Shown piece by piece: positions 6,870-36,316 of a DNA stretch of 64,000 nucleotides. Where the stretch lies: contig NZ_CM001022.1 in NCBI RefSeq assembly GCF_000165795.1, positions 2,389,812 to 2,453,811 on the forward strand. The letters are read 5' to 3'. Each line of letters begins with the position of its first letter. Position 1 is the stretch's first letter. Origin of the DNA: Aminomonas paucivorans DSM 12260. GTDB lineage: Bacteria > Synergistota > Synergistia > Synergistales > Synergistaceae. The notes beneath the pieces were generated by a model that had not been told where the DNA came from, did not search any database, and saw only the letters and a list, made by a program, of their open reading frames with translations. A program made the translations under genes and the position numbers.

Positions 6870-7814
6870 GTGAGCAAAACCCCTTTCTCCTTCCTTTCGT
6901 TGCGGATGGGAGGCGCGATCCTGGGCCTGCTCCTCGGGACCCTGCTTCTCGCCCTTCCCTGCGAGGCCCTCACCCTGCACCACCCCCTGGGCCCCTCCCT
7001 GCTGGCGGCCACGGGGATCCTGGATCGAAGCTCCCTGGGCTCGGTTCCCCTCGTCCTGCGTCCCTGGCGGAGCCTGGAGGAGGCGGGGGCCGTGCTGGCC
7101 AAAGAGCCTGGGGGCCTGGCGGTGCTTCCCACCACCACCGCCGCCTTCCTGGCGGAGCGGGGCATCCCCCTGCACCTCCTGGGGGTACACCTCTGGAAGG
7201 CCTTCTTCCTCCTGAGCTCCCGGGAAAACCCCCTCAAAGACCTTTCCGCCGCCGGGGGGACGCGAATCCTGGTGCCCTTCGGACGGGGGGACGTGGCGGA
7301 CGGGGTGCTGCGGACCCTGCTGAAGGCCTCTTCGGTCCGGAACGTGAAGCTCCTCTACGCCTCGCCCCAGGAAGGGGTGGCCCTGCTGGCGGCGGGGAAG
7401 ATCGACGGGGCGGTGCTTCCGGAGCCCTTCGCCACCCTGGCGCGACGCGGGGGAGCCCACGCCCTGGACCTCCAGGTCGAGTGGGCCCGGCGCTTCGGAG
7501 GGCGGCCCCGGCTTCCCGTGACGGGGCTCTTCCGGGTGGGGACCCTGGACCCGGCGACGGAGCAGGCCGCGGTGGCAGCGTTCCAGCGAAGCGTCGCCCG
7601 GGCCCTTCGGGATCCCCAAGGGGCGGGGGCCGTGGCGGCGGAGACGCTGCACATGGAACCCGCCCTGGTGCGGGAGGCGGGCAGAAGGCTCACCCTGGAG
7701 TTCGTCCCTCCCCGGGCGGCCGCCCCGGAGCTGCGGCGGTTCTTCCAGATCCTCTCCCGCCACGCCCCGGAGACCCTGCCCCCGACCCCCGACCGGGCCC
7801 TGGACCTCCCCTGA
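6870..7814 (+). CDS. ABC transporter substrate-binding protein, NitT/TauT type
   Basis: Periplasmic binding protein of 314 residues for a nitrate/sulfonate/taurine-class ABC importer; the ligand may equally be a thiamine precursor or another small molecule. A signal peptide (residues 1-33, ending LPCEA) is followed by the two-lobed fold, with a GGTRILVPFGRGDVADGVLR hinge region and LLAAGKIDGAVLPEPFA, which is typical of this class. GTG at 6870 is chosen: GGAGG lies 9 bases upstream and the signal peptide begins right there. The stop is 2 bases from the start of the permease gene, forming a three-gene operon with it and the ATPase. Confidence 0.85.
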   Translation: MSKTPFSFLSLRMGGAILGLLLGTLLLALPCEALTLHHPLGPSLLAATGILDRSSLGSVPLVLRPWRSLEEAGAVLAKEPGGLAVLPTTTAAFLAERGIPLHLLGVHLWKAFFLLSSRENPLKDLSAAGGTRILVPFGRGDVADGVLRTLLKASSVRNVKLLYASPQEGVALLAAGKIDGAVLPEPFATLARRGGAHALDLQVEWARRFGGRPRLPVTGLFRVGTLDPATEQAAVAAFQRSVARALRDPQGAGAVAAETLHMEPALVREAGRRLTLEFVPPRAAAPELRRFFQILSRHAPETLPPTPDRALDLP

Positions 7815-25134: not shown

Positions 25135-26856
25135 CTAGTAGAGGCAGTCCATCCCCGCACGGAGGGCTTCGGCGCACCACCCGGGCACGGGGGGCAGGTC
25201 CCGGTCCTCCGGGACGCAGGGCAGGGAGATCAGGGACGGACCGTCCAGGGCCAGGGCCCGGGAAAGGACCTCCCGGAAGACCTGAGGCGTCGTCGCCTCG
25301 AAGCCTGCCACGCCGAAACCCTTCGCCACGGCGGGGTAGTCCACCGGGGCGAAGTCCGTGAACCGCCCGTACCCCTCCCCCAGCTCGGAGCCTCGGATCA
25401 CCCGTTCCGTCCCCCGGATCCAGCCGTAGGTCCGGTTGTCGAACACCAGGAAGATCACCCGGCTCCCCCAGCGCGCGGCGGTCTCCAGCTCCCCCGCGAC
25501 GAAACCGAAGCTCCCGTCCCCCACCAGCCCCACCACCGGGGCACCGGAGGCCACCCCCCAGCGGGCTCCCAGGGCCGCAGGAAGGGCGTAGCCCAGGGCC
25601 CCCATGGCGAAGTTGTACGCCGTCCGGCGTCCCGCGGAGGAAAGGCGCAGGAACGCGGCGGAATAGGCCGCCGCCACCCCCGGATCCACCGCCAGGAAGG
25701 CATCCTCCGGCAGGACCTCCTCCAGGATGCGGGCCACGTGGAGGGGGTGCAGTTCCCGGCGCTCCGCCAGGGCCCGGACCACCCGCTCCTCGTGGGCCTC
25801 CCGTCCCCCCGCCAGCTTCTCCAGCCAGGGGGACCGGTCCGGGGCGACCTCCCTGCCCAGGACCTCCAGGAGCCCCCGCAGGGTCTCCCGGGCGTCCCCC
25901 AGGAGGGGAAGCACGGGGTAGTTCAGCCCCAGTCCCTCCCCGCTCACATCCAGCTGGAGGAAGGTCTTCCCGGAGTTCGGGTCGGGAAGGCGCCAGCCGT
26001 CGGTGCCCGCGGAATCGGTGCTGTTCCCCAGGAAGAACACCAGGTCCGCCTCCGCCAGGGCCTCGTTGGCCCAGCTCCGCCCTCCCCGGGCCCCCAGCAC
26101 CCCGAGGCTCAGGGGGTGGGTCTCCGGGAAAGCGCCCTTGGCGTTGATGGTGGTCCCCACAGGGGCGGAGAGGCGCTCCGCCAGGGCCCGCACCTCCGCC
26201 CAGGCCCCGGAGTGCACCACCCCCTGCCCGCAGAACAGCACAGGCCTCCGGGCGCCCCTCAGGGCCTCGGCGGCGGCGGACAGGTCCTCCGGAGCGGCGA
26301 CGCTGCGGCACCCGGGGAACCGGCCATAGCGAGGATCCGCCCAGGCCTCCCGATCCGGACACTCCCCCTCCAGCACGTCCGAGGGGAGCCGCAGGTGCAC
26401 CGGCCCGGGACGCCCCGTGACGGCGGTGCGGAAGGCCAGGCGCACCAGATGGGGCACCTCCTCCGACGCCGTGGCGGTGAGGGTGGCCTTGGTGATCCCC
26501 TGAAACAGGGCGGTCTGGTCGCACCCCGTGAGCATGTTGCGCCGCTCGTACCGCAGGGGGATCTCCGAAGTGAGCACCACCAGGGGCACGCAGGCGTGGA
26601 AGGCCTCCGTCACCCCCGGAACCATGTGGGTGGCCCCCACGCTGGGCCCCTCGCACACCCCCACCTTCCCCGAAGCCTTGGCGTACCCATCCGCCATGAA
26701 CACGGAACTCCGCTCGTCCCGGCACAGGTGGTGCCGCACCTGGGGGAACCGCTCCCACTCCCGGTAGAGGGCCAGGGTGGTCTCCCCGGGGAGGCCGAAG
26801 ACGTGCTCCACCCCCAGGTCCTTCAGTTGTCGCAACAGCGCCTCAGTGACCTTCAT
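25135..26856 (-). CDS. thiamine-pyrophosphate enzyme, acetolactate-synthase-like
   Basis: TPP-dependent enzyme of 573 residues with the three domains of the acetolactate synthase/benzoylformate decarboxylase family. These are the N-terminal PYR domain with catalytic Glu at about residue 25 (GLPGETTLAL), a central domain, and the C-terminal PP domain with GDGSFGF at 446-452 and the Asn of the TPP motif in VFDNRTYGW. No valine/leucine operon surrounds it, so a catabolic carboligase or 2-oxo-acid decarboxylase role is as likely as acetolactate synthesis. The promoter (TTGACG, 17, TAGACT) carries an operator shared with two other operons of this region, next to the FCD regulator gene. Substrate not identifiable from sequence. 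Confidence 0.85.
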   Translation of the reverse strand: MKVTEALLRQLKDLGVEHVFGLPGETTLALYREWERFPQVRHHLCRDERSSVFMADGYAKASGKVGVCEGPSVGATHMVPGVTEAFHACVPLVVLTSEIPLRYERRNMLTGCDQTALFQGITKATLTATASEEVPHLVRLAFRTAVTGRPGPVHLRLPSDVLEGECPDREAWADPRYGRFPGCRSVAAPEDLSAAAEALRGARRPVLFCGQGVVHSGAWAEVRALAERLSAPVGTTINAKGAFPETHPLSLGVLGARGGRSWANEALAEADLVFFLGNSTDSAGTDGWRLPDPNSGKTFLQLDVSGEGLGLNYPVLPLLGDARETLRGLLEVLGREVAPDRSPWLEKLAGGREAHEERVVRALAERRELHPLHVARILEEVLPEDAFLAVDPGVAAAYSAAFLRLSSAGRRTAYNFAMGALGYALPAALGARWGVASGAPVVGLVGDGSFGFVAGELETAARWGSRVIFLVFDNRTYGWIRGTERVIRGSELGEGYGRFTDFAPVDYPAVAKGFGVAGFEATTPQVFREVLSRALALDGPSLISLPCVPEDRDLPPVPGWCAEALRAGMDCLY

Positions 26857-26900
26857 GACCCAACCCCTTTTCTCAAGGAGGATGCTTGCACCTATCCATA

Positions 26901-26957
26901 GCTCATCATTTATGAGCAGCTACCGCCCAGTCTAGGAGCCCTTCCCCGTTCCGTCAA
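26901..26957 (-). promoter_or_regulatory. promoter and operator of the TPP-enzyme gene
   Basis: On the minus strand, TTGACG (26957-26952), a 17-base spacer and TAGACT (26934-26929). Downstream, at 26917-26901, is a palindrome of GCTCAT and ATGAGC around a 5-base centre, overlapping the expected transcription start. The half-site is shared with 27027-27046 and 32047-32071. Confidence 0.65.
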
Positions 26958-26994
26958 CACGGGGGGAAAAAATCGAAGACCAATTGCGAATGGA

Positions 26995-27046
26995 TTGACA
27001 GGTACGCCAAGGGGCTCCTATACTTCGCTCATCATCGGTGATGAGC
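26995..27046 (+). promoter_or_regulatory. promoter and operator of the DUF2294 operon
   Basis: Perfect TTGACA (26995-27000), an 18-base spacer and TATACT (27019-27024). The operator at 27027-27046 is GCTCATCA, four bases, TGATGAGC, a perfect 8-base inverted repeat starting 2 bases after the -10, a repressor position. Confidence 0.75.
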
Positions 27047-27053
27047 TGCGGAG

Positions 27054-27443
27054 GTGGGCATCCTGACCCCCGGCGATCTGAAACAGGAACTCATGCGGAT
27101 CAACAACGCGGTGAACCAGGAGATGTTCGGCGTGGGCCTCCGGCGACAGAAGGTGGACCTGCTGGACGACCGGATCCTCCTCATGGCCCAGAACCCTCGG
27201 GTGAAGGCCCTCACGGTGTTCGACAGCGGCGAGGGCATCACCGGTCGGCTCATGGATCTGGCCCTGCTGGAGGAGTACAAGAAACGGCTTCGAAAGGCCC
27301 TGGAGGATCGCCTGGGGGTTCAGATCCGCTCCGTCCTGAAGGACTACGATCCCGCGGAGGAGCTGGCCTTCACCCTGGTGGTCCTATGCGGAACCCTGGA
27401 GGACCTGCTCCGGGGAACCGAGCAACCCCGCTCAGCTGGCTGA
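27054..27443 (+). CDS. DUF2294-family protein
   Basis: Small soluble protein of up to 129 residues resembling the DUF2294 family (function unknown). It has an LMRINNAVNQEMFG helix, the VDLLDDRILLMAQN strand pair, a charged helix with EEYKKRLRKALEDRLG and a final LAFTLVVL strand. The start is uncertain. GTG 27054 has its GGAG directly abutting; CTG 27063 is better spaced behind GGAGGTG; ATG 27093 has AGGAAC but would cut into the conserved first helix. It is the first gene behind the operator-bearing promoter and is followed by a nested hairpin and the Nif3-like gene. Confidence 0.7.
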   Translation: MGILTPGDLKQELMRINNAVNQEMFGVGLRRQKVDLLDDRILLMAQNPRVKALTVFDSGEGITGRLMDLALLEEYKKRLRKALEDRLGVQIRSVLKDYDPAEELAFTLVVLCGTLEDLLRGTEQPRSAG

Positions 27444-27465
27444 GGGACATCCGAAGAGGATCGCC

Positions 27466-27537
27466 CGAGAGGACCGCTGACCGACGAAGCCCCCCGAGAC
27501 CCCTCGGGCGGGCAACGTATGGTCGGCGGTCCTCTCG
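27466..27537 (+). other. 72-base nested stem-loop in the operon
   Basis: A 17-base inverted repeat (CGAGAGGACCGC..., one G-T pair) encloses a second hairpin (CCCGAG/CTCGGG at 27493-27508). It lies between the DUF2294 and Nif3-like genes. It could be a partial terminator, an RNA processing site or a protein-binding element; no T-run follows. Confidence 0.5.
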
Positions 27538-27599
27538 TCGTCTGGGGAGACGGCGATCCTCCCGAGAGACGAGGGGACAAGGGAAGGGAGAGAGCAGGA

Positions 27600-28613
27600 A
27601 TGGCGGAAAGCGTGACGGTGCGGGACATTCTGGAGGCCCTGGATTGGATCACCGGGGGCCGGGTGGTGAAGGGCCCCGGCGACCTGGGGGGGCAGAACCC
27701 CTTCGTGTTGACCAAGTCGTCGGGGATCCCGGGGAAGTCGGTCACGGAGACCCCCGGCCTGGTGTGGGGGGACCCGTCGGCCCGGGTGCGGCGGGCGGCG
27801 GTGCTCATGACCCTCACGGAGAGCGCCATCGAACTGGCCGCCGCCACGGGGGTGGAGTGCCTGGTGGCCCACCACCCCATCGCCGACGGGGCCAACTCCG
27901 GCGGGGTGACCCTGAAGAACTACCTGGGCCTCTACGGTCTCCACGCCCTGGAGCTGCACGAGGCCTTCCACGGCCTCCACCCGGGGATTCCCTGGCTCCA
28001 CGGCCACCGGGCCCTGGAGGTGGACATCCGGGCGGGGGGGATCCACGGGAACATCCTCTACTACGGCGAGGCCCTGCCGGAGGTGCGCACCCTGGGGAAC
28101 CTGCTGGACCGGCTGGAATCCCTCATGGACCTGAAGACGGAACGGGAGGCCCTGGAACAGGAACGGCGCCTCCGGAACTGCCCGGACCTCCTGGAGACCT
28201 GCGTCTCCACCCGGGGGCACATCCTCCTGGGGACTCCCGAAAGCCCGGTGCGCCGGCTGCTGCACATCTTCCCCCACACGGGCTTCACCCCGGAGCACCT
28301 GGAGGCGGCCAAGGCGGCCCACCCCGACGCGGACACGGTGCTGGCCACCATCAGCCGGGTCTACCCGGGCAACCCCCTGATCGACAAGGCGCGGGAGCTG
28401 GGGATGAACTTCCTCTGCGGCAACTCCCACGCCCTGGAAATCCTGGAAAACGGCATCCCCCTGGCCCGGGCCCTGGCGACGCGGCTCCCCGGCCTGGAGG
28501 TGCGGGTCTTCCGGGAGCGGGTGACCAGCTACCCCCTGGACGAGGTGGGATCCGGCACGATCCGGGACTACGGGCGGGACATGGCCTCCCGCTACCTGCC
28601 CGGGACCCGGTAA
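27600..28613 (+). CDS. Nif3-like dinuclear metal-centre protein
   Basis: Protein of 337 residues, tentatively of the Nif3/YbgI family of dinuclear-metal proteins, whose cellular reaction is not settled. The support is the VECLVAHHPIADG motif (vicinal histidines as in the Nif3 HHP motif) near residue 90 and HGHRALEVD near 140, with further candidate ligands in LLHIFPHTGF and LCGNSHALEIL. It differs from the usual compact family member in having an extra N-terminal stretch. ATG 27600 has AGGGAGAGAGCAGGA upstream. It is the second gene of the operator-controlled operon; a role in ring opening or amide hydrolysis of the operon's substrate is a guess. Confidence 0.6.
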   Translation: MAESVTVRDILEALDWITGGRVVKGPGDLGGQNPFVLTKSSGIPGKSVTETPGLVWGDPSARVRRAAVLMTLTESAIELAAATGVECLVAHHPIADGANSGGVTLKNYLGLYGLHALELHEAFHGLHPGIPWLHGHRALEVDIRAGGIHGNILYYGEALPEVRTLGNLLDRLESLMDLKTEREALEQERRLRNCPDLLETCVSTRGHILLGTPESPVRRLLHIFPHTGFTPEHLEAAKAAHPDADTVLATISRVYPGNPLIDKARELGMNFLCGNSHALEILENGIPLARALATRLPGLEVRVFRERVTSYPLDEVGSGTIRDYGRDMASRYLPGTR

Positions 28614-28642
28614 CGGGGAAGACGAGGAAGGGAGAGAGGATC

Positions 28643-29734
28643 ATGAGCGAAGCGCGGGCAGAGCGGGTGGAATCGACGGGGGTTCGGCGATTCGAGCGGA
28701 TCGAAGGGGTGGGACTGGGGCTGGTGGCCCTGTCCCTGGGGCTTCTGGTGTGGAACCCCGGAGCCATCGCGGGGCTCTTCAACGCCATGGTGGACCGGGC
28801 CTTTCCCCTGGTGGTGAGCGTGTTCCTCACCGGCAAGGTGGGGGTGGCCATCCTGTGCAGCGTCATGATGGGACGCATCCTGGAGCGGTGCGGCTTCACC
28901 GACGCCCTCATGCGCCTCTTCGTGCCCCTCACCTCCCGGCTGGGGGTGAACGCGGCGGTGATCGTGCCGTCGGTGTACAACATTCTGGGGGACATCAACG
29001 CGGCGGGGCGCATCGCCGGTCCCATCCTGGTGAAGGCGGGGGCCACCAAGGACGAGCAGAAGATCGCCATCGCCACCATGGTACAGTCCCAGCAGTCCTT
29101 CTCCACCTTCATGTTCGGTCTCATCGCCCTCACCGCCGTGGGGGTCAAGGCCTACGCGGTGGTGTTCCTGGCGGTCTTCGCCCCTCTGGTGGTGGTGCCC
29201 CTGGTGCTGCGCCTCACCCTGTGGCGGAACACCCGAGCGGTAGCGATCCACGAGCTGCCCCGGTTCACCCCCACCAAGGGGGCCCTGCCCACCCTCTTCG
29301 GGGCGGCCAAGGAGGGGGCGGAACTGCTCTTCCTGCTCATCATCCCCGCCGTGGGGGCCATCTTCGCCCTCATCGGCGCCCTGGACTACCTGGGGATCTG
29401 GAAGCCCATCGAATCGTCCCTGGGGAGCCTGCTGTCCGCCCTGGCCATCGACCCCAAGACGGGGATGGTGTCCATCCTGGCCTCCCCCACCCTGGCCATG
29501 GCGCAGCTCAAGGACGTGGCGGCGGGGATGGACCCGAAGCTGGTGGTGGGTTCCTTCGTCCTGGCCGCCTCGGGGTTCCCCTTCTCGGTGATCCTGGGGC
29601 AGATCCCCGCCATCTGGTCGGACTGCACGGACCTGAACGAGAAGGAGGCCATGGGGGCGGCGGTGCTGGGGGCCACCATGCGCCTGTTCACCGCCGGGGC
29701 GGTGGCCCTGCTGGTGACCCCCCTGGTGCTGTAG
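28643..29734 (+). CDS. GATE-domain (nucleoside-recognition-like) membrane protein
   Basis: Inner-membrane protein of 363 residues with about eight hydrophobic helices. Polar signatures lie within helices, such as NILGDINAAGRIAGPI and VQSQQSFSTFMFG, and the second half begins with LFLLIIPAVGAIFALIGAL. This pattern is seen in proteins carrying the GATE/nucleoside-recognition domain (PF07670), many of which are uncharacterised transporters. ATG 28643 has GGGAGAGAGGA 5 bases upstream. It follows the Nif3-like gene by 29 bases and precedes an FAD oxidoreductase gene, so it probably imports the operon's substrate. Confidence 0.7.
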   Translation: MSEARAERVESTGVRRFERIEGVGLGLVALSLGLLVWNPGAIAGLFNAMVDRAFPLVVSVFLTGKVGVAILCSVMMGRILERCGFTDALMRLFVPLTSRLGVNAAVIVPSVYNILGDINAAGRIAGPILVKAGATKDEQKIAIATMVQSQQSFSTFMFGLIALTAVGVKAYAVVFLAVFAPLVVVPLVLRLTLWRNTRAVAIHELPRFTPTKGALPTLFGAAKEGAELLFLLIIPAVGAIFALIGALDYLGIWKPIESSLGSLLSALAIDPKTGMVSILASPTLAMAQLKDVAAGMDPKLVVGSFVLAASGFPFSVILGQIPAIWSDCTDLNEKEAMGAAVLGATMRLFTAGAVALLVTPLVL

Positions 29735-29818
29735 CCCCACGGGACGGAAGAAGGACGGAACGGGCCGGGCCCCCGGCACTCGGGGGCTCGGCGGATCGGG
29801 GAAGGAAGGGATGAACCG

Positions 29819-31123
29819 GTGAAAAGGGAGACGAAGGTCCTGGTGTCGGGAGGCGGCTGGGGAGGCTGCGCCGCCGCAGAGGCGGCAGCCCTGGCGGGAG
29901 CCCGGGTGACCCTGCTGGAGCGCACGGACATGCTCCTGGGAACGGGGCTGGTGGGGGGCATCTTCCGCAACAACGGGAGGTTCGCCGCAGCAGAGGAGCT
30001 GATCGCCCTGGGCTGCGGCCTGGTGGAGGTGATGGACGCCTGCGCCCGGCATCGGGACGTGGACTTCCCGGGGCACCGCCACGCCAGCCTCTACGACGTG
30101 TACCGCATCGAACCCGCCGTGCAAGCCCGGCTGGAGGAGCTGGGGGTGCGGGTGCTCACCGAGACCTCCGGGGTGGACGCGGCGGTGGAGGGGGGACGGG
30201 TGGTCTCGGTGCGCACCTCCCGGGGGGAGACCCTGGAGACGGACGCCCTGGTGGACGCCTCAGGCACCTCCGCCACCCCGGGCAACTGCGTCCGCCACGG
30301 CAAGGGCTGCGCCCTGTGCATCCTGCGCTGTCCCGCCTTCACCCCCCGGGTGAGCCTCACCACCCGCCTGGGGGTGGAGGAGTACGACGGCCATCGCGCC
30401 GACGGAACCCTGGGTGCCATGAGCGGCTCCTGCAAGCTCTTCAAGGAGTCCCTGGACCCTGCCCTGGCCCGGGAGCTGGACGAGAAGGGAGTCTGTCTGG
30501 TACCGGTGCCCGAGGCGGTGCGGGAGGACCTCTCCATCCTGGGGACCAAGGCCTGCCAGCAGTACGCCCTGAAGGAGTTCGTGGAGAACCTGGTGCTCCT
30601 GGACACGGGCCCCGCCAAGCTCATGACCCCCACCTTCCCCCTGGAGCAGCTCCGCCGGGTCCCGGGGATGGAGCGGGCCCGGTTCGAAGACCCCCTGGGA
30701 GGGGGACGGGGCAACTCCATGCGCTTCTTCCGCTTCGCCCGGTGCGACGCCTCCCTGCGGGCCCGGGGCCCCGCCGAAAACCTCTTCTGCGCCGGGGAGC
30801 GGGGAGGCCCCATGGTGGGACACACGGAGGCCCTGGTCACGGGAGCCCTGGCGGGGCACAACGCGGCGCGGTGCGCCCTGGGGCTGGACCCCCTGGTGCT
30901 CCCCCCCTCCCTGGCCTGCGGGGACTTCGTGGCCCACGTGCTGGAGCAGGTGGAGACGGAGGCAGGACGGGGCACCAAGTTCACCTTCTCCGGCTCCGTC
31001 TACCTGGAACGCATGAAGGCCCTGGGCCTGGACGGGACGGATGCCCCGGCGATCCGCCGACGGGTGGAGGCTGCGGGGCTCCGGCAGGTCTTCCGTACCC
31101 CCCTGACGACCCTTCGGGCATAG
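29819..31123 (+). CDS. FAD-dependent oxidoreductase
   Basis: Flavoprotein of 434 residues of the FAD-dependent oxidoreductase group (PF12831-like). The N-terminal dinucleotide-binding fold is visible as VLVSGGGWGGCAAAEAA, ending in LLERTDML, followed by a TGLVGGIFRNNGRF flavin contact. A middle region has the cysteine cluster GKGCALCILRCP, which could be redox-active or metal-binding. The C-terminal FAD motif FCAGERGGPMVGHTEALVTG is typical of the fold. GTG 29819 is used; the ATG 8 bases earlier runs into a stop. Fourth gene of the operator-controlled operon, closed by a terminator. Substrate unknown. Confidence 0.82.
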   Translation: MKRETKVLVSGGGWGGCAAAEAAALAGARVTLLERTDMLLGTGLVGGIFRNNGRFAAAEELIALGCGLVEVMDACARHRDVDFPGHRHASLYDVYRIEPAVQARLEELGVRVLTETSGVDAAVEGGRVVSVRTSRGETLETDALVDASGTSATPGNCVRHGKGCALCILRCPAFTPRVSLTTRLGVEEYDGHRADGTLGAMSGSCKLFKESLDPALARELDEKGVCLVPVPEAVREDLSILGTKACQQYALKEFVENLVLLDTGPAKLMTPTFPLEQLRRVPGMERARFEDPLGGGRGNSMRFFRFARCDASLRARGPAENLFCAGERGGPMVGHTEALVTGALAGHNAARCALGLDPLVLPPSLACGDFVAHVLEQVETEAGRGTKFTFSGSVYLERMKALGLDGTDAPAIRRRVEAAGLRQVFRTPLTTLRA

Positions 31124-31132
31124 AAAACCACG

Positions 31133-31173
31133 AGCCCCCCTTCACCTTCCGGCGAAGAGGGGCTACCCTTTTT
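31133..31173 (+). terminator. terminator after the FAD-oxidoreductase gene
   Basis: A 10-pair stem with one mismatch (AGCCCC and CTTC arms), then ACCC and five T. Confidence 0.7.
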
Positions 31174-31214
31174 CCCAGCTGCCCCCTTGCGGGGCGTCGC
31201 GAGGAGGTCACCCC

Positions 31215-31934
31215 ATGCACGAACGCTCCAACGTCCAGACCGCCCTGCTGTCCATCCTGGGTTCCGCCCGGCAGCCCCTGGGGGCCGGAGCGGCCCGGGA
31301 GGCCCTCTGCCGGGAGGGCTTCGAGGTCAGCGAGGCCACGGCGGGACGGCTCCTCCGGGCCCTGGAGGAGCAGGGCCTGGCCCGCAAGGTGAGCGTCCAG
31401 GGACGCCTCCTCACGGACCAGGGACGCCTCCTTCTGGAGACCACCCAGCGGGAACAGCGGCGCTCCCAGTCCGCGGAGGCCTTTCTGGAGGTGCTGGAGG
31501 CCACCCAGAGGCGGGAGATGATCGACCTCCTGGTGGCCAGAAGGGCCATCGAGGGAGAGATCGCCTCCCTGGCGGCCCGCTACGGCACGGAGGAGGAGCT
31601 GCGGCAGCTTCGGGAGCTTCTGACCCTGACCCAGGTGGCCCGGGCGGAGGGGCGCAACCTGGCCGCCCTGGACCAGCGCTTCCACGGCCTCATCGCCGCC
31701 ATGTCCCGCAACCGGGTGTTGGAGGCGGCTCTCCAGCTCATCCGACAGCACGGGGACCCCTCTCCCATCCTCCCGGAGATCCGGGCCCGCTCAGGCCACG
31801 GCTCCGGGCAGGACCACGTCCTCATCCTGGAAGCCCTGGAGGCACGGGACCCGGAGCGGGCCCGGGAGGCCATGACGAACCATCTGGGGAGCGTCCTGGC
31901 GGACGTGGAAGCCTATCCGGAAAAACCCCTTTGA
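31215..31934 (+). CDS. FCD-domain transcriptional regulator with an atypical winged helix
   Basis: Cytoplasmic regulator of 239 residues. The N-terminal 70 residues form a winged helix (LLSILGSARQPLGAGAAREA, then VSEATAGRLLRALEEQGLAR) that looks more like the RNase R-type/NrpR winged helix than the GntR domain usual for this class. The C-terminal 150 residues are an FCD ligand-binding domain, with metal-ligand candidates in DLLVARRAIEGEIASLAA, DQRFHGLIAAMSRNRVLEAAL and the H in EALEARDPERAREAMTNHLG. It sits between three promoters that share a GCTCATCA half-site and is the natural candidate to bind them. FCD domains usually bind small organic acids. Confidence 0.8.
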   Translation: MHERSNVQTALLSILGSARQPLGAGAAREALCREGFEVSEATAGRLLRALEEQGLARKVSVQGRLLTDQGRLLLETTQREQRRSQSAEAFLEVLEATQRREMIDLLVARRAIEGEIASLAARYGTEEELRQLRELLTLTQVARAEGRNLAALDQRFHGLIAAMSRNRVLEAALQLIRQHGDPSPILPEIRARSGHGSGQDHVLILEALEARDPERAREAMTNHLGSVLADVEAYPEKPL

Positions 31935-31965
31935 GCGCCCTTCCAACCCGGTTTGTTCCACCTGT

Positions 31966-31990
31966 CGCCCCTCCCTTCGGGAGGGGCGTT
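31966..31990 (+). terminator. terminator of the FCD regulator gene
   Basis: Perfect 10-base stem CGCCCCTCCC with a TTC loop, followed by TTGTATT. Confidence 0.75.
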
Positions 31991-32014
31991 GTATTCTCTT
32001 CGCCCTAGCGGGGA

Positions 32015-32071
32015 TTGACAGACATGGGGGACAACCCTAGCATGTTGCTCATCAGTGATGATGTGCTCATC
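32015..32071 (+). promoter_or_regulatory. promoter and operator half-sites of the ddh-dapF operon
   Basis: TTGACA (32015-32020), a 17-base spacer and TAGCAT (32038-32043). Directly after it are GCTCATCA (32047), TGATGATG (from 32056) and GCTCATCC (32064), half-sites of the motif seen at 26901 and 27027 in a denser, overlapping arrangement. Confidence 0.65.
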
Positions 32072-32118
32072 CGTGAGGAGTCTCGGGGACCGGTCCTGAG
32101 GAAAAAGGAGGGAGTGTC

Positions 32119-33027
32119 TTGGAAAAGCGACGAATCGCCGTGGTGGGCTTCGGCCACGTGGGGTGCGGCGCCGTGGAGGCCCTGGAGGTGGCCCCGGACC
32201 TGGAACTGGCGGGGGTGGTGCTCCAGGATGAGGGGGAGATCCGCCGGGCCTGCTGCAGCCTGGGAAGCGTGCCGGTGGTCCGACACCTGGCAGAGCTGGA
32301 AAAGGTGGACGCGGCGCTCCTGGCGGTGCCCAGCCGCTGCGTCCCCAAACTGGCCCCCCCCATCCTGGAGACGGGGGTCGCCACGGTGGACTGTTACGAC
32401 ATCCACGGGGATCCCCTCATGACCCTTCGGGCGACCCTGGATCCCATCGCCCGGGAGCACGGCACCGCGGCGGTGATCTCCGCGGGGTGGGACCCGGGGA
32501 CGGACTCGGTGGTGCGGACCCTGCTGGAGGCCCTGGTCCCCCGGGGGATCACCTACACCAACTTCGGCCCGGGGATGAGCATGGGACACACGGTGGTGAT
32601 CAAGGGCTTCGAGGGGGTGGAGGACGCCCTGTCCCTCACCATTCCCAAGGGGTGCGGCCTCCACAAGCGGTACGTGTACCTGAAGACCCGGCCGGGGACG
32701 GACTTCGACGCCCTGGTGGCCCGCATCTCCCAGGACCCCTACTTCGCCCACGACGAGGTGCACTTCTTCCCCTGCGAGGACGTGCAGGCCCTGGTGGACA
32801 CGGGGCACGCGGTGCACCTGGAGCGCCGGGGCTCCGCCGGGAAGACCCACAACCAGAAGGTGGACTTTCTCATGTCCGTTACCAACCCCGCCGCCACGGG
32901 ACAGGTGCTGGTCTCCGCCGCCCGGGCGGTCCTGCGCCAGCGCCCGGGAGCCTACACCCTCCCGGAGATCCCCCCGGTGGACTTCCTCCCGGGAGATCGG
33001 GAGTCGCTGCTGCACCGCCTGATCTGA
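32119..33027 (+). CDS. ddh: meso-diaminopimelate D-dehydrogenase-like protein
   Basis: NAD(P)H-dependent dehydrogenase of 302 residues. It matches the pattern of diaminopimelate dehydrogenase (one-step reductive amination of tetrahydrodipicolinate, or the reverse oxidation of meso-DAP). It has the nucleotide motif VVGFGHVGCGAVEAL, then VDCYDIHGDP, the substrate signature SAGWDPGTDSV, and GPGMSMGH. The start is a TTG with AGGAGG 7 bases upstream. It is next to dapF, which supports a DAP/lysine role. The promoter carries the presumed FCD-regulator operator, unusual for a housekeeping pathway, so a related catabolic amino-acid dehydrogenase (such as diaminopentanoate dehydrogenase) is the main alternative. 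Confidence 0.78.
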   Translation: MEKRRIAVVGFGHVGCGAVEALEVAPDLELAGVVLQDEGEIRRACCSLGSVPVVRHLAELEKVDAALLAVPSRCVPKLAPPILETGVATVDCYDIHGDPLMTLRATLDPIAREHGTAAVISAGWDPGTDSVVRTLLEALVPRGITYTNFGPGMSMGHTVVIKGFEGVEDALSLTIPKGCGLHKRYVYLKTRPGTDFDALVARISQDPYFAHDEVHFFPCEDVQALVDTGHAVHLERRGSAGKTHNQKVDFLMSVTNPAATGQVLVSAARAVLRQRPGAYTLPEIPPVDFLPGDRESLLHRLI

Positions 33028-33052: not shown

Positions 33053-33880
33053 ATGACCCGATACGCCAAGCTTCACGGCAACGGCAACGACTTCCTCGTC
33101 CTGGACCTGCGGGGCACCCCCGGGGAGGGGAAGGACCACGCCGCCGAGGCTCGCGCCCTCTGCCGCCGGGAGGAATCCCTGGGGGCCGACGGACTCCTGC
33201 TGGTGGAAAGCTCCTCCCGCCTGAACTTCCGGATGCGCCTGTTCAACCGGGACGGGTCGGAGGGGGAGATGTGCGGCAACGGGGCCCGGTGCATCGCCCG
33301 GTACGCCTGGGAAACGGGCATCGCCCCGGCGGAGATGGCCTTCGAGACCCTGGGGGGGGACGTGCACGCCCGGGTGGACGCCCCCTTCGTGCGCCTCCGC
33401 CTGGCGGAGGTGGATCTGGGCGACGCGACCTGGGAACGGAAGACCTCCGCAGGGGGGCAGGAGCTGGCCTACTCCTTCCTCACCGTGGGGGTGCCCCACT
33501 GCGTGGTGTTCCTGGAGGACCTGGCGACGCGCCCCCGGGAAGAACTGTTCCGCCTGGGCCGGGAGCTGCGCGGCCGCACGGACCTGTTCCCCCGGGGGAC
33601 CAACGTGAACTTCCTGGCCCCGGAGAAGGAAGGGCTTTTCCTCATCACCTACGAAAGGGGGGTGGAAGACCTCACCCGATCCTGCGGAACCGGCTCCGTG
33701 GCCGCCGCCGTGACGGCCCGTCGCCTGGGCCGATGCGGCGACGACGTGAAGGTGCGCAACCTGGGGGGCATCAACCGGGTCCTCCTGGAGGACTCGGGAC
33801 CGGACCGGGTACGCCCCTCCCTGGAGGGACGCACCGCCCTGGTGGCCTGGATGGAGCCCACGGAGGAGGCTCTGGTTTAG
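33053..33880 (+). CDS. dapF: diaminopimelate epimerase
   Basis: Cofactor-independent epimerase of 275 residues interconverting LL- and meso-diaminopimelate in lysine and peptidoglycan synthesis. Both catalytic cysteines are present, Cys74 in MCGNGARC and Cys211 in SCGTGSVA, with the N-terminal KLHGNGNDFLV and the PHCVVF region. The ATG has GAGAGGAGAGG upstream, and it lies 25 bases behind ddh in the same operon. With Ddh producing meso-DAP directly, DapF would supply or use the LL-isomer. Confidence 0.93.
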   Translation: MTRYAKLHGNGNDFLVLDLRGTPGEGKDHAAEARALCRREESLGADGLLLVESSSRLNFRMRLFNRDGSEGEMCGNGARCIARYAWETGIAPAEMAFETLGGDVHARVDAPFVRLRLAEVDLGDATWERKTSAGGQELAYSFLTVGVPHCVVFLEDLATRPREELFRLGRELRGRTDLFPRGTNVNFLAPEKEGLFLITYERGVEDLTRSCGTGSVAAAVTARRLGRCGDDVKVRNLGGINRVLLEDSGPDRVRPSLEGRTALVAWMEPTEEALV

Positions 33881-33970
33881 GTACGGACATCCTGCGGTAC
33901 GATCCGCGCCGCTTTCCCCGGTTTGGACGGCACCCCGCGTCCGGGTCAAGAGACAAAGGAGGTTCGGAAC

Positions 33971-35233
33971 ATGTCGGAGAAGCAAGAGAACAGCCTCTGG
34001 AAGGCCTATCGGTTTCCTCTCATCCTCATCAGCTCCATCGCCCTGGGCTGCATCCTGGGGGCCCACATGGGCAAGGACGCCCTGATCTTCAAACCCCTGG
34101 GGGACATTTTCCTCAACGCCATGTTCATGGTGGTGGTGCCCCTGGTGTTCACCACCATCTGCAGCGCCGTGGCCAGCATGTCCTCCATGAAACGCCTCGG
34201 CAAGGTCATGGGCTCCATGGTGCTGATCTTCGCCGTCACCGGGGCCATCGCGGCCGTCCTGATGGTGGGCACCGTGGTCCTCTTCCCCCCCGCCGAGGGC
34301 ACCGCCATCACCCTCACCCAGCCGGAGAACCTGGAGAAGCTCAACACGGCGGACCAGGTGGTGCAGGCCATCACCGTGGGGGACTTCCACGAACTCCTCT
34401 CCCGGCGTCACATGCTCCCCCTGATCCTCTTCACCATCCTCTTCGGCATCAGCCTGCAGATGTTGGGGGAACGGTCCCGACCCATCGCCCAGGGCATCTC
34501 CATCCTGGCGGACGCCACCCTCAAGATGGTCCAGATCATCATGTACTACGCCCCTGTGGGCCTGGCGGCCTACTTCGCCACCCTGGTGGGGGACTTCGGC
34601 CCCAACCTGCTGGGGGCCTACTTCCGCTCCATGGTGGTGTACCACGTGGTCACCCTGGCCTACTTCTTCGTGGCCTTCACGGTCTATTCCTGGCTCGCCA
34701 CGGGGGGCCGGGGAACAGGGATCTTCTGGAAGAACATTGTCACCCCCGCCCTCACCGCCCTGGGCACGGGCAGCAGCACCGCCACCCTGCCGGTGAACCT
34801 GGCGGCGGCGGCGCGCATGGGCATCCCCCAGGACATCCGGGAGGTGGTGCTCCCCATCGGAGCCACCGCCCACATGGAAGGCTCCTGCCTCAGCGGGATC
34901 CTCAAGATAGCCTTCCTCTTCGGCATCTTCCACATGCCCTTCGCGGGCCTGGGGACCTTCGCCAGCGCCATCCTCGTGGCGGTGTTGAGCGGCGTGGTGC
35001 TCTCGGGCATCCCCGGCGGCGGACTGGTGGGGGAGATGCTCATCGTGAGCCTCTACGGCTTCCCCCCGGAGGCCTTCCCCATCGTGGCCACCCTGGGCTT
35101 TTTGGTGGACCCCGCCGCCACCATGGTCAACGCCACCGGGGACACCTGCTCCGCCCTCATGGTCTCCCGCATGGTGGAGGGCAAGGGCTGGTTCCAGCGG
35201 TTCTACAAACCCCAGGACGACCCGACGGCCTGA
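33971..35233 (+). CDS. dicarboxylate/amino acid:cation symporter
   Basis: Inner-membrane carrier of 420 residues of the DAACS (glutamate/aspartate symporter) family. Eight helices and two re-entrant hairpins are expected. The serine-rich hairpin is seen as TALGTGSSTATLPVNLAAA, and the substrate/cation region as PIGATAHMEGSCLSGI (family usual NMDGT, here HMEGS), ending with DPAATMVNATGDTCSALMV. The last stretch carries the Asp/Asn/Thr that bind amino acid and cation. The ATG has AAAGGAGG 8 bases upstream, 90 bases behind dapF. It probably imports an amino acid or dicarboxylate coupled to Na+ or H+. Confidence 0.9.
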   Translation: MSEKQENSLWKAYRFPLILISSIALGCILGAHMGKDALIFKPLGDIFLNAMFMVVVPLVFTTICSAVASMSSMKRLGKVMGSMVLIFAVTGAIAAVLMVGTVVLFPPAEGTAITLTQPENLEKLNTADQVVQAITVGDFHELLSRRHMLPLILFTILFGISLQMLGERSRPIAQGISILADATLKMVQIIMYYAPVGLAAYFATLVGDFGPNLLGAYFRSMVVYHVVTLAYFFVAFTVYSWLATGGRGTGIFWKNIVTPALTALGTGSSTATLPVNLAAAARMGIPQDIREVVLPIGATAHMEGSCLSGILKIAFLFGIFHMPFAGLGTFASAILVAVLSGVVLSGIPGGGLVGEMLIVSLYGFPPEAFPIVATLGFLVDPAATMVNATGDTCSALMVSRMVEGKGWFQRFYKPQDDPTA

Positions 35234-35293: not shown

Positions 35294-36316
35294 ATGAAGA
35301 CCCACGAGCTTCGAGAACGGCTTCGAACCTTTCCCCGGTTTCCCCTTCTGCGGGACGCCACCCCCCTGCACCCCCTGGAGAACCTCTCCGGGGAACTGGG
35401 GGTGGACCTGCGGGTCAAACGGGACGACCTGACGGGCCTGGCTGCGGGGGGCAACAAGACCCGCAAGCTGGAGTACCTCATCGGGCGGGCCCAGGCGGAG
35501 GGGGCCGACACGGTGCTCACCGCGGGGTGGTACCACTCTAACCACGCCCTCCAGACCGCCGCAGCGGCGGCCCGGGCGGGGCTGGAGTGCATCCTCTACC
35601 TGAAGGCGGGGGACCCCCGGAAGGGAAGCCTCTTCCTGGACGCCCTCTGCGGCGCCCAGGTGCGCCTCTTCGACGTGCCGGGCAGCGGCGCCCTGGGCCC
35701 GGAGATGGAACGGGGCGCCGAGGCCCTGCGCCGGGAGGGGCGGAAGCCCTACGTCATCCCCGTGGGGGGATCGGACCCCGTGGGGTCCCTGGGCTACGTG
35801 GAGGGGGCCCTGGAGATGCGGGAACAGTGCGACGAGACGGGTTGGGAACCGGACCTGGTGGTGTGCCCCACCAGCAGCGGGGGCACCCACGCGGGGCTCT
35901 TGGCGGGAATCCCCGCCCTCTTCCCCCGGACCCGGGTGCTGGGCATCGGGGTGGGGGACGACCCGGGGGAGGTCCGGGAGAAGGTGGGACATCTCCGGGA
36001 CGCCTTGGGGGAGCTTCTTTCTCTACCCCCTCTGGACGACCGCACCCTGGACGAGGCCTTCTGTTTCGACTACGGCTTCGGGGCCTACGGAACCCTGGCG
36101 GGCCCGGTGATGGACCTGATCCGGGAGGTGGGCTCCCGGGAAGGGTTCTTCCTGGACCCGGTGTACACCGGCAAGGCCTTCTACGGCCTGCTGGACCGCA
36201 TCCGCCGGGGGATCGTCCCCCTGGCCTCCCGGGTGCTCTTCCTCCACACCGGGGGCCTGTCGGGGCTCTTCCAGTACGAGGAGGAGGTGCACCGCCACCT
36301 GGCGGGGACGGACTAG
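35294..36316 (+). CDS. D-cysteine desulfhydrase / ACC deaminase-family PLP enzyme
   Basis: PLP-dependent enzyme of 340 residues of the tryptophan-synthase-beta fold, closest in pattern to D-cysteine desulfhydrase (D-cysteine to pyruvate, H2S and ammonia). The PLP lysine is in AAGGNKTRKLEYL, followed by AGWYHSNHALQTAAAAA; the phosphate-binding glycine loop is SSGGTHAG. The ATG is 27 bases after the terminator of the symporter gene and has GAGGAGG upstream. Length fits the family (about 330). Activity on other D-amino acids is possible. The terminator between it and the symporter leaves open whether it has its own promoter. Confidence 0.85.
   Translation: MKTHELRERLRTFPRFPLLRDATPLHPLENLSGELGVDLRVKRDDLTGLAAGGNKTRKLEYLIGRAQAEGADTVLTAGWYHSNHALQTAAAAARAGLECILYLKAGDPRKGSLFLDALCGAQVRLFDVPGSGALGPEMERGAEALRREGRKPYVIPVGGSDPVGSLGYVEGALEMREQCDETGWEPDLVVCPTSSGGTHAGLLAGIPALFPRTRVLGIGVGDDPGEVREKVGHLRDALGELLSLPPLDDRTLDEAFCFDYGFGAYGTLAGPVMDLIREVGSREGFFLDPVYTGKAFYGLLDRIRRGIVPLASRVLFLHTGGLSGLFQYEEEVHRHLAGTD

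Follow-up and report, generated by a model that had tools for sequence, protein, structure and literature searches.

A probable local regulon of an HTH_12-FCD regulator around ddh and dapF in Aminomonas paucivorans DSM 12260

Introduction

Aminomonas paucivorans is an amino-acid fermenter. In a stretch of 64,000 nucleotides from the genome of strain DSM 12260 (contig NZ_CM001022.1, positions 2,389,812 to 2,453,811 of the forward strand; hereafter the window, numbered from its first letter, with a G+C content of 67.9%), three promoters are each followed by a similar inverted repeat and a gene for an FCD-domain regulator lies among them, which raises the question whether regulator and repeats form one control circuit and what the controlled genes do together. 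A first-pass annotation, made from the sequence alone, had proposed one local regulon that joins a thiamine pyrophosphate (TPP) enzyme, an uncharacterised membrane/flavin adenine dinucleotide (FAD) operon and a diaminopimelate (DAP)-type dehydrogenase. Comparative evidence supports this regulon but makes it wider, as it also takes in dapF, transporters and a D-cysteine-desulfhydrase-like enzyme. Regulator, operator and target set probably constitute one local regulon, with predicted binding and repression. The control circuit is apparently real and undescribed; a literature search returned no description of the regulator architecture, the operator or FCD regulons in Synergistetes, an absence that is no proof, with subscription papers mostly outside the search.

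Operators and promoters

GCTCAT-type half-sites had been reported at three promoters, and all three sites were recovered at those positions. Operator A (26901..26917; GCTCATCATTTATGAGC, i.e. GCTCAT-N5-ATGAGC) lies in the divergent region between the TPP gene and a DUF2294-like gene and was assigned to the minus-strand TPP promoter. Operator B (27027..27046; GCTCATCATCGGTGATGAGC) is a perfect 8+8 inverted repeat with an N4 spacer, GCTCATCA-TCGG-TGATGAGC, and operator C (32047..32071; CTCATCAGTGATGAT) consists of GCTCATCAGTGATGATG followed by an additional CTCATC half-site. A promoter scan of positions 26800-32200 gave exactly three sigma-70-like promoters (versus 0.1 expected in shuffles), each with one palindrome downstream: TTGACG-N17-TAGACT on the minus strand for the TPP gene (26929..26957), TTGACA-N18-TATACT on the plus strand for the DUF2294-like operon (26995..27024) and TTGACA-N17-TAGCAT on the plus strand for ddh-dapF (32015..32043). 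The -10 elements end at 26929 (minus strand), 27024 and 32043, which corresponds to gaps of 11, 2 and 3 bases to the palindrome, in line with the 2-11 bases given earlier. Sites A, B and C span the expected transcription start just past the -10 element, which is a repressor position. The N4 spacing that had been put forward as part of the motif was not borne out: the consensus operator of the family is CTCATCANTGATGAG, a 15-bp core with an N1 spacer, and site B is the exception. Between the regulator gene and promoter C lies a terminator-type hairpin (31966-31988).

Within the window, GCTCATCA-N4-TGATGAGC with at most three mismatches was matched three times (0.15 expected by chance) and TCAT-N5-ATGA four times (0.21 expected), whereas the half-site GCTCATCA on its own is less specific (10 copies, some of them away from promoters). 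The genome, a single contig of 2,630,170 bases, was scanned with the consensus by pattern search. Allowing one mismatch at most, sites A and C were the only two matches; at two mismatches, site B, the second half-site at C and four others were added, the latter four all within long reading frames. The motif is thus infrequent genome-wide, and the regulon claim stands the comparison with random copies.

Conservation in relatives

Homologues of the regulator were found by protein search in 48 of 61 relatives, many of the weaker matches spanning the FCD part only. The loci of full-length homologues contain the same genes, though arranged differently from locus to locus (TPP enzyme, FAD protein, DUF2294-like/NIF3/Gate proteins, ddh, dapF, symporter and D-cysteine-desulfhydrase-like enzyme) and also carry TRAP, ABC or permease genes. 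In the 300-bp stretches before each gene (counts uncorrected for kinship between genomes), the consensus was found before ddh in 8/8 cases (at most two mismatches) and before the DUF2294-like gene in 6/6 (at most one mismatch). Sites in front of fad, TPP and the regulator were found chiefly when the gene in question opens an operon; the regulator gene itself is preceded by a site in several relatives. At one mismatch, 26 of the 68 potential first genes had a site, versus none of 31 operon-internal genes (dapF, dcyd, gate, nif3 and sdf), and 250 permuted palindromes used as a control averaged 0.00, the highest value being 1. Among the other genes of the same loci 6/371 had a site, including a ddh fragment and TRAP genes, which are likely members of the regulon.

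The repressor position holds family-wide, with 26/31 regulon sites in relatives preceded by a sigma-70-like promoter (score at least 9 of 12) whose -10 element ends 3-15 bp ahead of the 15-bp core. The corresponding values were 1/20 for motif matches from genus g24 (family f3), in whose examined genomes no full-length regulators were found, and 2.8% for random positions. This promoter test replaced stop-to-stop frame length as the intergenic test of control matches; frame length is uninformative in GC-rich DNA, where every position falls within some long frame.

Regarding the whole phylum, the exact 15-mer occurs eight times in 188 Synergistota genomes, one copy each in eight genomes, and the reversed control pattern gave no match in the same genomes. 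All eight copies precede regulon genes: the regulator (G042, G059, G066 and G074), ddh (G041, G058 and G083) or a TPP gene next to the regulator (G157). In genome G074, of family f3, the site immediately precedes the gene of a full-length regulator. The seven aligned regulators had diverged too far to serve in a scan of the collection, and the alignment of the FAD protein, which has relatives in many phyla, was used instead and gave 71 loci from named genomes. With at most one mismatch, the consensus was found at the regulon-bearing Synergistota loci L079, L084, L085 and L086 and at one other, L145; it was absent from the Thermotogae, Negativicutes, Proteobacteria and Chloroflexi loci among the 71, and locus L081 (Synergistaceae, with TPP and FAD genes) gave no match even at two mismatches. 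Both earlier expectations, that the motif precedes orthologous operons and that it tracks the regulator, agree with these results: it is present in several families together with the HTH_12-FCD regulator, and homologous operons of other phyla that lack this regulator also lack the motif. At L145 (position 4415, on a Bacillota groundwater contig) the 15-mer is matched exactly, at a distance of 2.7 kb from the FAD gene, and no regulator homologue was detected on that contig.

The regulator

The regulator gene (31215..31934, plus strand) encodes an HTH_12/PadR-like winged helix (residues 1-95) and an FCD sensor (residues 97-235), as judged from Pfam, an AlphaFold model (predicted local distance difference test score 85) and fold matches. 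Pfam gave the FCD domain (PF07729) with 88.1 bits over residues 104-225 and an N-terminal HTH_12 domain (PF08461) with 34.7 bits, above cut-off; the GntR winged helix (PF00392) was not found by Pfam. The C-terminal part matched PdhR with a Z-score of 20.8 over 135 residues at 1.5 Å, and DhdR with a Z-score of about 20, and the first 95 residues matched PadR-family structures with a Z-score of 12.7 over 88 residues. Residues D153, H157, H201 and H223, which are invariant in seven homologues, correspond to the Asp and three His of the metal site known for the FCD family. The regulator described among the sites is thus an FCD protein that lacks a GntR DNA-binding domain; it is a domain chimera and not a GntR protein, and an HTH_12/PadR-like winged helix in place of GntR fits the non-GntR operator.

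Homologous TPP-FAD modules of other phyla (Chloroflexi, Burkholderiales, Holophagaceae and Telmatospirillum) are likewise found together with FCD regulators. At these modules they look like canonical GntR-FCD proteins (tested with Pfam at L101, visible in the open reading frames of L095 and L110). Judging from this distribution and not from a tree of FCD domains, the FCD sensor seems to travel with the TPP-FAD module while the DNA-binding domain differs.

The proposed mechanism is that the HTH_12-FCD protein acts as a dimeric transcriptional repressor, which would bind CTCATCANTGATGAG-type palindromes over the transcription start of three targets, namely the TPP gene, the DUF2294-like/NIF3/Gate/FAD operon and the operon of ddh, dapF, symporter and D-cysteine-desulfhydrase-like genes. 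A small carboxylate or amino-acid ligand in the metal-type FCD domain would free the repressor from DNA.

Across the regulator subfamilies the half-site is constant, and spacing and orientation vary. In a tree of 26 regulators, a paralogue encoded in the same genome (G000:851774) groups with the regulators of G002, G022 and G032, whose sites are direct repeats, CTCATCA-CTCATCA, downstream of promoter elements; the group of G014 and G029 has CTCATCA-N4-TGATGA. The family is therefore a usable case of operator evolution, in which one half-site is arranged as an inverted repeat of varied spacing or as a direct repeat. In a sister group of the regulator, direct repeats of the form CTCATCA-CTCATCA(-ATCATCA) follow the promoter upstream of the regulator at L051, L053 and L054. 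At L045, the -10 element of a second regulator of G040 (G040b) is immediately followed by a long palindrome of another sequence, TTTGAGCTGATCACCAATGGTGATCAGCTCAAA, which suggests another operator class.

Genes of the regulon and a possible pathway

The TPP-dependent enzyme (25135..26856, minus strand) belongs by profile matches to the acetolactate synthase/2-oxo acid decarboxylase superfamily, and its orthologues carry the operator or follow ddh. All other genes lie on the plus strand. The operon behind promoter B starts with a small DUF2294/MpsC-like protein (27054..27443, start codon uncertain), for which the DUF2294 label of the first-pass annotation holds at a sub-threshold level only (MpsC, PF10057, 17.7 bits versus a cut-off of 23, though the alignment spans nearly the whole protein). 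It continues with a DUF34/NIF3-like protein (27597..28613; Pfam), a Gate/nucleoside-recognition-like membrane protein (28643..29734; below the Pfam cut-off) and an FAD-dependent protein with a GidA/TrmFO-like fold (29819..31123; Pfam). A very stable hairpin at 27466-27536, between the DUF2294-like and NIF3-like genes, showed a minimum free energy of -89 kcal/mol for 157 nt (z -5.8); an Rfam search of 26700-32300, which included it, gave no RNA family, and an attenuator, a processing site or a repeat element is possible.

The operon behind promoter C comprises ddh (32119..33027), a meso-diaminopimelate dehydrogenase of the Symbiobacterium type and the single copy in the genome, a dapF-like diaminopimelate epimerase gene (33053..33880), a sodium:dicarboxylate symporter gene (33923..35233; Pfam) and a gene for a pyridoxal phosphate enzyme of the D-cysteine desulfhydrase/1-aminocyclopropane-1-carboxylate deaminase family (35294..36316; family profile matches). 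Ddh matched TIGR01921 with 247.6 bits (cut-off 180.6), and its nearest PDB entry is 3wb9, the meso-DAP dehydrogenase of Symbiobacterium. All ten meso-DAP contact residues listed for the enzyme (PMC7424261) are kept (D92, W121, F146, S151, M152, G153, T171, R181, H227 and N253), and the same ten are kept across the regulon except for one position in one relative. At the NADP 2'-phosphate site of StDAPDH, R35-R36-K37 (a cofactor feature of that enzyme and not family-defining), Ddh has L35-Q36-D37, which hints at use of NAD and thus at oxidation. DapF matched TIGR00652 with 193.4 bits (versus 114.65) and has both catalytic cysteine motifs, MCGNG and SCGTG; another dapF lies at genome position 210836 in a different gene context, and the regulated copy is therefore probably not the housekeeping one.

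In families f6, f7 and f10, the TPP gene comes immediately after ddh. The kept contacts, the second dapF and this ddh-TPP pairing suggest catabolism of DAP, or of a related D-amino acid, via decarboxylation; the aldehyde dehydrogenase that adjoins TPP-fad in five proteobacterial loci fits the decarboxylase reading. The regulated genes most likely serve the uptake and breakdown of a diamino or D-amino acid, with DAP as the favoured substrate: DapF would make the meso form, Ddh would oxidatively deaminate meso-DAP to L-2-amino-6-oxopimelate, and the TPP enzyme would decarboxylate the latter to an aldehyde. From the residues and gene order, DAP breakdown is put forward tentatively, as a possible but doubtful assignment. 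The fuller version, an undescribed DAP fermentation route in Synergistota (NAD-linked Ddh, TPP enzyme leading to 2-aminoadipate 6-semialdehyde) under a chimeric FCD repressor in which GntR was swapped for an HTH_12/PadR-like domain along with a new operator, is unlikely to hold in all its parts. A literature search for diaminopimelate catabolism gave no match, an absence that is no proof.

Two observations tell against DAP breakdown. The transporters of the regulon differ between relatives (symporter, TRAP or ABC), so the substrate may vary, and the proposed pathway gives no role to the FAD, NIF3, Gate and DUF2294-like proteins. With a chance that comes close to even, the regulon is right and the pathway is another one, in which the DapF- and Ddh-like enzymes act on other amino acids, as a racemase and a D-amino-acid dehydrogenase, or Ddh is biosynthetic for meso-DAP and lysine. 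Besides the varying transporters, this alternative is favoured by StDAPDH, which aminates 2-keto acids to D-amino acids (PMC7084900), by the O-ureido-serine racemase among the DapF homologues, and by the Asp/Glu racemase and the B12 protein that are added in the Pseudothermotoga cluster. In that cluster fad, a permease gene, ddh and dapF stand together without the operator. The ten contacts, the L-Q-D triplet and the second dapF all speak for DAP breakdown instead. In loci of the Pseudothermotoga type (L083:13975-16628 and L082:12678-15331), dapF is followed by genes for a protein of 592 residues, which carries a B12-binding domain at its N-terminus and shows weak similarity to parts of lysine 5,6- and ornithine 4,5-aminomutases, and for a KamB-like reactivase; the two are possibly an undescribed B12-dependent aminomutase.

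Other explanations of the palindromes

Three findings count against control by the neighbouring FCD regulator. Its gene has no recognisable promoter or operator of its own in the window; site B has the N4 arrangement and its orthologues have N1; and the paralogue at 851774 is 40% identical to the regulator, has a nearly identical recognition helix and carries single CTCATCA half-sites after the -10 element of its own promoter (L035, about 7520-7770), so that it could act at these sites too. The palindrome might accordingly belong to another, unlinked regulator, either this paralogue or a CodY-like protein, since a CodY-like global regulator is known in Synergistetes (PMC9318921), with the FCD gene as a bystander. 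This is improbable: the sites adjoin the HTH_12-FCD gene itself in several genomes, and the closest relatives of the paralogue go with direct repeats and not with the palindrome. CodY was rejected as the regulator, as the CTCATCA operators do not match its published AT-rich palindromic box (AATTTTCWGAAAATT-like arms), and CodY is reported to act over 8-13% of genes (PMC9318921), whereas the site is confined to one regulon.

The FCD regulator could also work on the same sites as an activator, as some FCD regulators can. This is very unlikely, because activators normally bind upstream of the -35 element, and in 26/31 cases the site comes after near-consensus -35/-10 elements and covers the expected +1. 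Chance, or shared ancestry without function, is practically refuted by the shuffles, the permuted palindromes, the placement of all eight exact copies from 188 genomes at regulon genes and the conservation between families, even though the half-site alone occurs at other places.

Comparison with known systems

With one regulator, one palindrome and one gene set, an apparently undescribed class of Synergistota regulators gains a concrete predicted operator and target set that are consistent across families. As the operator groups uncharacterised FAD, TPP, DUF2294-like and NIF3 genes with ddh and dapF, their joint function becomes testable. The Synergistetes CodY regulon is from the same phylum and likewise has palindromic operators at promoters of amino-acid metabolism, but with AT-rich boxes, a global regulon and a GAF-wHTH protein; the CodY study noted that there is no genetic system for Synergistetes (PMC9318921). 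The N-terminal part of the regulator resembles the winged helices of the PadR family and of the NrpR/RNase R type (HTH_12, 34.7 bits; PadR, Z-score 12.7), whereas its sensor is an FCD domain and no PadR or NrpR effector domain is present. The FCD regulators at the TPP-FAD modules of Chloroflexi and Proteobacteria (L091, L095, L096, L098, L101, L103, L110, L115, L124 and L128) share the adjoining homologous TPP and/or FAD genes; they differ in a canonical GntR helix (seen at L095, L101 and L110), and their modules lack the CTCATCA palindrome and a detected ddh and often include an aldehyde dehydrogenase. The repressors of the FadR subfamily of GntR proteins (PdhR, DhdR, LldR and NanR) agree with the regulator in the FCD fold, the conserved metal-site residues, repressor-type operators and control of carboxylate and amino-acid catabolism. 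They differ in their DNA-binding domain, which is GntR there and HTH_12/PadR-like here, and in their operators, which follow a consensus of TKGT/ACMA (GT-N-AC) boxes (PMC4494728), whereas the predicted operator CTCATCANTGATGAG has no such boxes.

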